Shown here: positions 24,385 through 28,742 of the stretch, one piece after another
Layout: each line of letters starts with the position of its first letter
Position numbering within the stretch: the stretch's first letter is position 1
Source of the DNA: Nitrospirae bacterium RBG_13_39_12
GTDB taxonomy: Bacteria > Nitrospirota > Thermodesulfovibrionia > Thermodesulfovibrionales > SM23-35
NCBI GenBank assembly: GCA_001805125.1
Contig: MHEF01000103.1
Span: 7,156 to 39,850 of the forward strand
Direction: 5' to 3'
DNA length: 32,695 nt
Notes under the pieces: model-generated
Seen by the model: the letters and a program-made list of their open reading frames with translations, nothing else
The model's database searches: none
Told to the model about the DNA's origin: nothing
Position numbers and translations under genes: made by a program

Positions 24385-24557
24385 TTTTCCTCCACTTATA
24401 TTTGACAACTGTTATATATTTCAATTGATTCTATTCTTATCCGAGAAATACATATCTTAACCTTATGTATAATACATAATATGCTACCACAGGGTTAAAA
24501 GAGCGTCAAATTACCTCTTTATTAATTCTATTTTAGATGTTAAAATCTCTTCATTTT

Positions 24558-25247
24558 ATGGGATACAATAGTATAAAAAAATGGCCTGAAGGCGAGAGAC
24601 CACGAGAAAGGCTTCTAAAATATGGTGCCCATAATTTATCAGATGCTCACCTACTCGCAATAATACTTCGCACCGGGGGCGGAGGTAAAAGCGCTATAGA
24701 CCTTGCGATAGAGATCCTTAACTCATTCGGAACTCTTAAAAGGATTGATAATGCATCTCCTGGGGAGTTTGTATCCTACAAGGGGATAGGAAAAGCAAAG
24801 GTTGCTCAGGTAAAGGCTGCTTTTGAACTTGGGAGAAGGCTGCTTGATGAGCCTCTTGAAAAAGGACCTGTTTTTTCATCGTGCCAGGACGTTTTCTTAT
24901 ACTACAATCAGCGTTTTAAAAATTTTAAAAAAGAGGTCTTCCGCTGTGCTCTTTTAGATGCAAAAAACAGGATATTCCGAGACTACCGAATCTCAGAGGG
25001 TACCCTTACCAATTCATTAATACATCCTCGCGAGGCATTCAGGGAAGCTATAAAAGAATCTGCAGCATCAGTTATTTTTATACATAACCATCCAAGCGGT
25101 GATGCAAGCCCAAGCCAGGAAGATATTTTGATAACAGAACGGCTTGTTGACACTGGTAAGATAATCGGTATAAGGGTTCTCGACCATTTAATTATCGGAG
25201 ACAAAAAATATACAAGTATGATGGAGGAGGGATACATAAAAAATTAA
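24558..25247 (+). CDS. radC: RadC-family JAB/MPN domain protein
   Basis: KKWPEGERPRERLLKYGAHNLSDAHLLAIILRTGGGGKSAIDLA..., C-terminal FIHNHPSGDASPSQEDILITERLVDTGKIIGIRVLDHLIIGD. Confidence 0.93.
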   Translation: MGYNSIKKWPEGERPRERLLKYGAHNLSDAHLLAIILRTGGGGKSAIDLAIEILNSFGTLKRIDNASPGEFVSYKGIGKAKVAQVKAAFELGRRLLDEPLEKGPVFSSCQDVFLYYNQRFKNFKKEVFRCALLDAKNRIFRDYRISEGTLTNSLIHPREAFREAIKESAASVIFIHNHPSGDASPSQEDILITERLVDTGKIIGIRVLDHLIIGDKKYTSMMEEGYIKN

Positions 25248-25257
25248 GGAGGGTTAG

Positions 25258-25872
25258 ATGTTAAAAATTAAGAGAGCCATCATAAGTGTCTCAAATAAAA
25301 AAGGTGTTGCAGATTTTGCAAAAGAACTCAGCTCAATGGGGATTGAAATATTATCAACCGGGGGAACAGCAAAAGCATTAAGGGAAGCTGATATTACTGT
25401 AAAAGATGTATCAGAATATACTGGCTTTCCTGAAATGCTTGATGGAAGGGTTAAGACTCTTCATCCCAGGATTCACGGCGGTTTACTTTCAAGAAGGGAT
25501 AATCCAAAGGACATGGAAGAAATAAATAAGCACGGGATTGATACAATAGGAATGGTGGTTGTAAACCTGTATCCTTTTGAGGAGACCATCTCAAAGCCAG
25601 GGGTTTCCCTCGCAGAAGCTATAGAGAACATTGATATAGGTGGACCTGCAATGCTGAGATCAGCATCAAAAAATTTTCAGGATGTTGCTGCCATAATTGA
25701 CCCGCTTGATTATAAGAAAATCATAAATGAGATGAAAAGCCGGAATGGGGACTTGAGTTACAACACGAGATTGGAACTTGCAAAAAAAGTATTCAGACAT
25801 ACATCGATATACGATAAACTAATTGCTGATTACCTTACAAAAATAACAGAAGAAACTTTAAACGAGAGATAG
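25258..25872 (+). CDS. purH: Standalone IMP cyclohydrolase domain (PurH N-terminal/PurJ-like); AICAR transformylase domain absent
   Basis: [36 protein letters not shown]...[29 protein letters not shown]...[17 protein letters not shown]; stops after [13 protein letters not shown], the domain boundary. Confidence 0.9.
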
Positions 25873-26117: not shown

Positions 26118-27383
26118 ATGAAAGTGCTTGTTATTGGCAGCGGGGAGAAAGAACACGCAATTGTATGGAAGCTATCTCAAAGCAGGAATATAAACAGAAT
26201 TTTCTGCAGTCCTGGAAATACTGAAATAGCCGAGATAGCCGAGTGTGTGGATGTAAGCCCAAATAATTTTCGTGCACTTATCGATTTTGTCAAATACGAG
26301 TGGATTGACCTGACAGTTGTTGGTCCTGAAGAGCTTTTTTCAAAAGGTATTGTTGATGAATTTGAAAAAGAAGGCTGTAAAATATTGGGCCCTAATAGAA
26401 GAGCTGCGCAACTAACATCGAGCCGGGTATTCGCAAAAAACCTCATGCGGCTCCACAGGATCCCAACAGCAGAATTTAAAGTCTTTACTTCTTATCTTCA
26501 TGCAAAGGATTACGTAAGACTAAAAGGTACTCCAATAGTTATAAAGGCAGATACCCCTTTTGAAGAACCCGGAGAATTTGTGGTTTCTACATTAGAAGAA
26601 GCAATGGACGCCCTCAAACTTGTTATTGAAGATAGAATTGGAGTGGACACTAGTAAACGAGTAATTATAGAAGATAACCTAAAAGGCGAAAGGGTATCTT
26701 TTATAATCTTAACTGATGGAAAGACAATCGTGCCTTTCACAGGTTTGCATAAATACAAACAACTTTTTAGTGGTAATACTGTTCCAAAGACAACAGTTAT
26801 GGGTGCTTCCAGTCCAGCGCCTATCATCACAAAGAAACTTGAAGACATTATAATGGAAAAAATAATGAGACCCATAATAAAAGCGCTGAATTCTGAAAAT
26901 ATAATATACAAAGGTGTCCTATCTGCAGACCTGGTGATAGATAAAGATAATCCGTATGTCTTTGATTTCAAATGTTGTTTTTGTGATCCAGAAACACAGA
27001 CTGTCCTTCCCAGAATTAAAACAGACTTTATAGACTTGGCGCAAGCTATTATAGAAGAAAGGCTATCTGAAATAAAAATAGAATGGAAACAAGGGGCATC
27101 TGTATGTGTTGTAATTTCTTCAAAAGATTACCCTAACAAATATCAAAAAGGTGCTATTATAAAAGGTCTTGAAAAAATAAAATTAATGAATGATACTGTC
27201 GTGTTTCATGCAGGCACATCATTTTTGGATAAGGATATTATTGCCTCAGGTGGAAGGGTTATCAGCATAATAGCCACAGGAACTGAAATAAAGGATGCTA
27301 GTAACAAAGCATATAATGCTTTAGAAAAGATAAGTTTCGACGGTATGTATTATAGAAAGGATATCGGTAATAACAAATTTTAA
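26118..27383 (+). CDS. PurD-like (phosphoribosylamine-glycine ligase family, ATP-grasp) protein with altered catalytic motifs
   Basis: MKVLVIGSGEKEHAIVWKLSQS...IDLTVVGPE...FCDPETQTVLPRIKTD...HAGTSFLD...GGRVISIIATG; end-to-end collinear with PurD. Confidence 0.88.
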   Translation: MKVLVIGSGEKEHAIVWKLSQSRNINRIFCSPGNTEIAEIAECVDVSPNNFRALIDFVKYEWIDLTVVGPEELFSKGIVDEFEKEGCKILGPNRRAAQLTSSRVFAKNLMRLHRIPTAEFKVFTSYLHAKDYVRLKGTPIVIKADTPFEEPGEFVVSTLEEAMDALKLVIEDRIGVDTSKRVIIEDNLKGERVSFIILTDGKTIVPFTGLHKYKQLFSGNTVPKTTVMGASSPAPIITKKLEDIIMEKIMRPIIKALNSENIIYKGVLSADLVIDKDNPYVFDFKCCFCDPETQTVLPRIKTDFIDLAQAIIEERLSEIKIEWKQGASVCVVISSKDYPNKYQKGAIIKGLEKIKLMNDTVVFHAGTSFLDKDIIASGGRVISIIATGTEIKDASNKAYNALEKISFDGMYYRKDIGNNKF

Positions 27384-27393
27384 AGGAGAAGAA

Positions 27394-27900
27394 ATGAAGT
27401 TACAGGTTTTGATAGTAGCTGGAAGTGATTCTGATCTTCCTGTAATGGAAGAAGCTGGCAAAATACTCAAAAAACTTGGAATTTCTTATGAGATGTCCAT
27501 TGCATCTGCGCATAGGTCACCGGAACGTGCAATTCGAATTGCATCTGAGGCTGAAAAGAAAGGCTTTGAAGTGATTATTGCTGGCGCTGGAATGGCAGCC
27601 CATTTGGCCGGAGTTATTGCAGCACATACAACAATCCCTGTAATCGGGGTACCCATTGATTCATCGCCTCTTAATGGTTTTGACTCCCTTCTTTCTACGG
27701 TACAGATGCCTTTTGGAGTACCGGTAGCCACGATGGCGATAGGCAGGGCAGGAGCAAAAAATTCTGCAATCTTTTCAGCTCAGATTATTGGCACAAAGGA
27801 TCCAGAGGTTTCAAAAAGGCTCAAAGACTACAAGAAAAAAATGGCAGAAAAAATAGAAAAAAAGGCAAATGCACTGCAAGACCGCTACCACCGAGGATGA
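27394..27900 (+). CDS. purE: 5-(carboxyamino)imidazole ribonucleotide mutase
   Basis: VLIVAGSDSDLPVMEEA...SAHRSPERAI...AGAGMAAHLAGVIAAHTTIPVIGVPIDSSPLNGFDSLLSTVQMPFGVPVATMAIG. Confidence 0.93.
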   Translation: MKLQVLIVAGSDSDLPVMEEAGKILKKLGISYEMSIASAHRSPERAIRIASEAEKKGFEVIIAGAGMAAHLAGVIAAHTTIPVIGVPIDSSPLNGFDSLLSTVQMPFGVPVATMAIGRAGAKNSAIFSAQIIGTKDPEVSKRLKDYKKKMAEKIEKKANALQDRYHRG

Positions 27901-28742
27901 GAGTACACCTTGATTGTTTTCCATGCTTTTTAAGGCAAGCTCTTATTGCGCTCAGATTTGGAACTAAAGACGAACTATTACAGGAGACTATATTAAAAAG
28001 CATCCTGGGAAACATTGAGAAAGCCGATACTTCAAAACCAGCTGCCTATACAACCACATTTATTCACAAGAAGATAAGAAAACTGCTGGGCAGTGACCCC
28101 TTCAAAGAGATAAAATCAGAATACAATCATATTGCACTCAGACTATATCCTGCTTTTAAAAATATTATTAATGACAGTCATGACCCTCTATGGATATCTA
28201 CAAGGCTTGCAATTGCAGGGAATGTGATAGACTTTGGAATATTCTCCTCTGTAGATATTGAAGGAACTATTCATACGGCACTTAATAACCCTTTAGCAGT
28301 TGATGACTACAGTAGTTTTAGTAATGCCATTTCTACTGCAGAAGAAATCCTTTACCTTACAGACAACGCGGGAGAGATTGTGTTCGACAGGTTATTAATA
28401 GAGACCATAATCTCTCTTGGGAAAAAGGTCAGGGTGGTTGTTAAAAGCTCACCTGTAATTAATGATTCTACAATGCAAGACGCTGAGGAATCTGGCCTTA
28501 TAAGAGTTTGCGAAGTAATAGACAATGGTTCTGAAGTTGTAGGCACAATCCTGGAGTGGACATCCTCAGCGTTCCAAGCAATATTTAAAAATGCTCAACT
28601 TGTAATAAGCAAAGGACAGGGCAACTTCGAGACACTCTATGGCAGCGAAAAGAAAATATTCTTTCTATTCCAATCTAAATGTGATGTGGTTTCTAAAGAA
28701 CTTGGCCTTTCAACTGGCTCGATGCTTCTCAAGAAATCCTGA
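27897..28742 (+). CDS. DUF89/ARMT1-like damage-control phosphatase family protein
   Basis: DCFPCFLRQALIALRF...HDPLWISTRLAIAGNVIDFGI...EILYLTDNAGEIVFDRLLIETI...VKSSPVINDSTMQDAEESGL; ATGA overlap with purE. Confidence 0.88.
   Translation: MRVHLDCFPCFLRQALIALRFGTKDELLQETILKSILGNIEKADTSKPAAYTTTFIHKKIRKLLGSDPFKEIKSEYNHIALRLYPAFKNIINDSHDPLWISTRLAIAGNVIDFGIFSSVDIEGTIHTALNNPLAVDDYSSFSNAISTAEEILYLTDNAGEIVFDRLLIETIISLGKKVRVVVKSSPVINDSTMQDAEESGLIRVCEVIDNGSEVVGTILEWTSSAFQAIFKNAQLVISKGQGNFETLYGSEKKIFFLFQSKCDVVSKELGLSTGSMLLKKS

Follow-up and report, generated by a model that had tools for sequence, protein, structure and literature searches.

A full-length PurD homologue without its ligand residues is probably retained as a pseudoenzyme in a family of Nitrospirota

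We analysed a 32,695-nucleotide stretch of the genome of Nitrospirae bacterium RBG_13_39_12 (the window), whose pur operon carries a full-length homologue of purD, here called D1. Our preferred reading, to which we give a probability of about 0.7, is that D1 is a conserved pseudo-PurD with a non-catalytic role and that the chemistry is done by another PurD. A first-pass annotation of the sequence had favoured a selected pseudoenzyme over simple decay, and the follow-up supports this choice: a canonical purD is found elsewhere in the genome, the residue loss is common to 14 genera and dN/dS (omega) is far below 1. The new catalytic activity that it had offered as the other option is unsupported, as the altered loops differ between genera, drift within a genus and contain no common new motif. 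In the open-access papers searched we found no report of a family-wide, operon-bound, full-length pseudo-PurD, or of any PurD/ATP-grasp pseudoenzyme.

The D1 gene and its operon

D1 lies between a shortened purH and purE; an ARMT1-like phosphatase comes next, and cysS lies farther along. The neighbourhood is as follows.

24537..25247, + strand: radC, conserved neighbour upstream
25258..25872, + strand: purH, IMP cyclohydrolase domain only, 204 aa; the transformylase domain is on contig C69
26118..27383, + strand: D1, probable pseudo-PurD of 421 aa; GARS fold complete, ligand and catalytic residues missing
27394..27900, + strand: purE (AIR carboxylase), starts 10 bases downstream of D1
27897..28742, + strand: ARMT1-like (DUF89-type) damage-control phosphatase, overlaps the purE end

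In the window translation the D1 frame is open over all 421 aa, and the Pfam domains GARS_N, GARS_A and GARS_C were all matched, each near-complete and with scores far over the cut-off. This confirmed the first-pass description of an intact 421-aa PurD homologue. An AlphaFold2 model built from 35 sequences of the window and related loci had the complete PurD fold with a mean pLDDT of 88.2 (weak at residues 176-178, at 216-225 and at the C-terminus), and the closest solved structure was A. aeolicus PurD with ATP (2yw2, TM 0.95). D1, which is 42% identical to 2yw2, thus has the domain set of PurD and resembles the known GAR synthetases (TIGR00877; 2yw2, 1gso) in fold, three-domain layout, length and purH neighbourhood; it differs from them in lacking ATP/Mg residues (E100, K103, E192) and glycine residues (D212, R287), and in that a canonical PurD is also present. 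The NCBIfam purD model gave window D1 421 bits (cut-off 288) and matched all 17 altered copies described below, the most diverged one checked scoring 247.5 bits, under the cut-off. Automatic annotation with this model would therefore label window D1, which is over the cut-off, a working PurD in metabolic models.

The window purH encodes IMP cyclohydrolase together with a stretch matching positions 1-64 of the transformylase model. The 'PurH domain' named in the first-pass annotation is thus accounted for, as PurH here is the cyclohydrolase only and the transformylase is encoded elsewhere. The ARMT1-like phosphatase adjoins purE in most relatives too, and radC is probably outside the function of D1.

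Ligand residues lost and kept

We used A. aeolicus PurD (2yw2) as the residue reference for the D1 alignment, with ligand roles taken from the charged ligand residues listed for this enzyme (PMC8880213). Window D1 carries the changes E100T, K103R, E192R, D212K and R287C and retains K143, E185, K214 and E292, so that the ATP/Mg set (E100, K103, K143, E185, E192, K214) reads T, R, K, E, R, K and the glycine set (D212, R287, E292) reads K, C, E; both sets are incomplete. At E283 and N285, which from general ATP-grasp knowledge we take to be metal ligands, it has E283D and N285K. Among canonical homologues K103 was present in 57 of 58 and every other checked residue in 58 of 58, which excludes chance as the source of the loss in the window. 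Three segments of D1 are degenerate.

26544..26579, + strand: degenerate ATP-binding loop KADTPFEEPGEF (canonical KADGLAAGKGV), codons 143-154; free variation among orthologues
26745..26825, + strand: degenerate SQDHKR...GPNTGGMGAYSPAP region LHKYKQLFSGNTVPKTTVMGASSPAP, codons 210-236; D212 in 0/15 copies; model of low confidence at residues 216-225
26964..26999, + strand: degenerate glycine/metal motif DFKCCFCDPETQ (canonical EFNCRxGDPETQ), codons 283-294; R287 in 0/17 copies

All of the motif strings quoted in the first-pass annotation (GSGEKEHA, KADTPFEEPGEF, EDNLKGERVSF, KYKQLFSGNTVPKTTVMGASSPAP and DFKCCFCDPETQ) were found, and its statement that nearly every motif had been rewritten held for the most part, the exceptions being the N-terminal loop, where G7, E12, H13 and A14 are kept, and the ATP-site K143, also kept.

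We then surveyed all 21 genomes available for the Nitrospirota family of the window; nearly all genomes compared in this study are MAGs. An altered, syntenic D1 beside purE was present in 18 genomes of 14 genera, a total that takes in the window's genome and a single partial copy. Among the altered copies the Mg/ATP residues were kept unevenly (E100 in 0/17, K103 in 2/17, K143 in 15/17, E185 in 14/17, E192 in 3/17 and K214 in 6/17), as were the glycine-site residues (D212 in 0/15, R287 in 0/17, E292 in 15/17) and the presumed metal ligands (E283 in 6/17, N285 in 11/17). Key catalytic and ligand residues are therefore absent from the whole orthologous group. New states were fixed at other positions: T295 and P298 in all 17 copies, R103 in 15/17, D or E at 271 in 16/17, and S269 in 15/17, where all canonical copies have Y. 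The loops that bear the ligand residues are unlike between genera and drift inside one genus. The question of whether the substitutions are conserved among orthologues thus has a divided answer: the loss of residues is common to 14 genera, whereas the random drift that would have spoken against the first-pass reading is seen in the loops and not in the protein as a whole. The drop in conservation is found mostly in the ATP-grasp part, while residues 1-40 of the N-domain are as conserved in altered D1 as in active enzymes (0.85 versus 0.86).

The complete fold, the persistence of K143, E185, E292 and N285 in most copies and the new conserved S269, D/E271, T295 and P298 could indicate that D1 is still an enzyme with an altered pocket, be it a ligase for another amine or acid or a catalyst of a phosphatase-like or kinase-like partial reaction. 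However, the ATP-, Mg- and glycine-binding loops are unconserved among the altered copies, contrary to what a common new activity would require, and E100, D212 and R287 are gone with no common replacement. As the loops themselves drift, a new activity common to the family is unlikely, and we give the altered-enzyme explanation about one chance in ten. As K143, E185 and E292 persist in most copies, D1 may bind nucleotide weakly or have some residual activity.

Family history and the second PurD

In a maximum-likelihood tree the altered D1 proteins formed a single clade of 17 copies (support 100/100) with long branches, and the canonical copy of genome G006 fell just outside it. G006, which is 83% complete, has a fully canonical syntenic PurD and a full-length 516-aa PurH, and no D2 (the second PurD, described below) was detected in this 83% complete assembly. 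Other families of the same order also have a canonical PurD. In a scan of named genomes, those with an altered D1 were Nitrospirota MAGs, several of them labelled Thermodesulfovibrionales. Wherever both halves were assembled, altered D1 was paired with a cyclohydrolase-only PurH and a stand-alone transformylase. A purF match was found in 21/21 family genomes, 18 of them full length and over the cut-off. Loss of D1 in G016 and G018 was considered and rejected: these genomes give no evidence of it because the purH2-D1 region as a whole is absent from both assemblies, and the G018 match is the end of D2.

Nearly all genomes with an altered D1 also encode D2, which is ∼37% identical to window D1. 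D2, which is 432 aa long, has the canonical PurD motifs and carries an insertion of ∼15 residues (the GRTRQxKxGKSKGWYPGYP region; loci L059-L075); it scores 479 bits as PurD. In G004 it is split across two contigs, and in G016 and G018 it lies at contig edges. We found no source of D2 in the sampled phylum, where full-length matches outside the family reached ∼50% identity at most, and D2 may have been acquired from outside the phylum. At the same loci (L059-L075) D2 adjoins MTHFR genes.

The window's own assembly (176 contigs totalling 2.93 Mb, completeness 96.5%, contamination 5.04%) differs in that D2 is represented by a C-terminal 185-aa fragment on contig C106 (L006, 4801-5358). The fragment sits in the usual family order (glutamate-synthase-like reductase, MetV-like protein, DUF2520, D2, MTHFR, PilZ), and 2.8 kb away the same contig carries a full canonical purD (735-2009, - strand) that is 58% identical to window D1. 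The second canonical purD for which the first-pass annotation had proposed a search in the same genome was thus found. In the tree this purD clusters with that of G044, from another family of the order (support 100/99), and beside it lie an ORF for an IS200-like transposase and a weak match to a DDE transposase. Apparently D2 lost its 5′ part here and an imported purD covers for it, a natural replacement, although the deletion could be an assembly fault of the MAG. All 11 checked residues are present in the G006 PurD, in the C106 copy and in both D2 proteins checked. By sequence, the activity lost from D1 would be supplied by D2 or by the C106 purD, and the chemistry seems to be left to an intact PurD encoded at another site in the genome.

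These data bear on two further explanations. Window D1 scores over the purD cut-off and lies in the pur operon, as would a working GAR synthetase that tolerates its changes while D2 does something else. Against this, the glycine-site D212 and R287 and the Mg-site E100 are missing from all altered copies, D2 has all 11 checked residues and a 479-bit score, and the genome without an intact D2 has another canonical purD. We regard this explanation as very unlikely, and the missing residues indicate that D1 very probably lacks GAR synthetase activity. An assembly or binning artefact is less credible still: the genomes are indeed MAGs, and the window's assembly has the contamination given above, but the altered gene recurs, with its neighbours in the same order, in many independently assembled MAGs, and contig C106 carries the D2 gene order typical of the family. 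A chimera or binning fault was rejected on this repeated synteny.

Selection on D1 and its possible role

Pairwise codon likelihood, in which omega is rough at high divergence, gave values for D1 of 0.181 (G007/G017), 0.235 (G001/G020), 0.145 (G011/G019), 0.109 (window/G012) and 0.126 (G009/G012); the three within-genus pairs are unsaturated for D1. Omega = 1 was rejected in all five pairs (p <= 1e-7 each). The dN/dS measurement that the first-pass annotation had called for therefore placed omega far below 1 in every pair, and purifying selection (omega 0.11-0.24) has followed the residue loss. The ATP-grasp domain alone gave 0.10-0.32; selection on the N-domain only was rejected, as the ATP-grasp and C domains also have omega ∼0.1-0.3. 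Every complete copy is full-length and stop-free across 14 genera, the sole stop, in G020, being the terminal codon; the stops, frameshifts and omega near 1 of a pseudogene were not seen. Neutral simulation predicted ∼4 to 18 in-frame stops per lineage at 0.13-0.85 substitutions per site where D1 has 0, the absence of stops alone not being decisive at the shortest simulated distance of 0.05, which is about that of the closest pair.

D1 nevertheless evolves faster than its surroundings. Identity to the window copy was 37-70% for D1 versus 67-84% for PurH2, PurE and RadC; fast evolution of the whole operon was therefore rejected, and the acceleration is specific to D1. In three matched pairs D2 omega was 0.10, 0.07 and 0.03, that of D1 being 2-5 times as high, and in genus g2 the ATP loop of D1 had omega ∼0.8-0.9 over 48 codons, which is near-free drift. 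This drift, the higher omega and the long branches are what would be expected of a relaxed or decaying relic that D2 made redundant and that survives through translational coupling or a misfolding cost. Yet all complete copies are intact in 14 genera where the neutral simulation predicts several stops, omega = 1 is rejected in five pairs, new residues have been fixed, and the N-domain is conserved as in active enzymes. We consider the relic improbable, the low omega and the lack of stops having led us to reject simple decay, and the D1 protein is almost certainly under selection.

The retained pseudo-PurD would have arisen early in the family, after the split from the G006 lineage, with the gain of an intact D2 and a stand-alone AICAR transformylase; purH would have kept the cyclohydrolase domain only. 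After the gain of D2, the original PurD between purH and purE would have lost its ATP/Mg and glycine chemistry, its fold, and especially its N-terminal domain, being kept under purifying selection ever since. The family has probably retained D1 since its early history, and the G006 sister lineage apparently shows the state before a core metabolic enzyme was stripped of its chemistry and yet kept family-wide. From its position in the operon, which is the basis for this view, we lean slightly towards a role for D1 within the purine pathway. D1 may be a non-catalytic partner that holds or docks PRA, PurF, D2, PurE or the cyclohydrolase; alternatively, it might sense a phosphoribosyl ligand through the retained N-domain.

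A more specific version, which we think unlikely though worth stating, is that the pseudo-PurD acts as a subunit dedicated to carrying or docking phosphoribosylamine (or PurF together with D2), with the N-domain binding the intermediate or the partner. A PRA-holding role is attractive because PRA is unstable, because PurF-PurD channelling has been proposed in E. coli while a stable complex was not found (PMC10912719), and because the coupling that the A. aeolicus enzymes show in vitro was considered insufficient unless some further factor takes part (PMC3261824). As the binding of PRA to PurD is structurally unresolved (PMC8880213), its assignment to the N-domain of D1 is something that we infer. 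A carrier D1 would be the kind of extra factor seemingly missing from the reconstituted PurF-PurD coupling (PMC3261824) and a marker of a bacterial purine metabolon. More generally, D1 offers a way to ask whether the purine enzymes of bacteria depend on scaffolds or on a handover of PRA.

Non-catalytic paralogues are retained in other biosynthetic pathways, for example HisZ with HisG. D1 would be like HisZ in having an enzyme fold without the chemistry, as would befit a partner of an active enzyme, and differs from it in having no known partner. Extra PurD-like proteins, rrnAC0307 in Haloarcula marismortui and Hlac_1553 in Halorubrum lacusprofundi, have been judged not to be GAR synthetases (PMC3261824). 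Like D1 they lack the R[LF]GDPE aspartate and the metal sites and share their genome with a canonical PurD (PMC3261824); unlike D1, whose N-domain is intact and which lies in the pur operon in 14 genera of one bacterial family, they lack Pfam GARS_N and come from two archaea.

The purH split coincides with the change in PurD, and G006 has neither. In the window's assembly the transformylase-only gene (∼430 aa) lies apart from the operon, on contig C69 (L007:1357-2649). A similar split is known from archaea, where PurH1/PurH2 are encoded as separate cyclohydrolase and transformylase genes (PMC3261824, PMC6797443); here it occurs in bacteria and together with the change in PurD.
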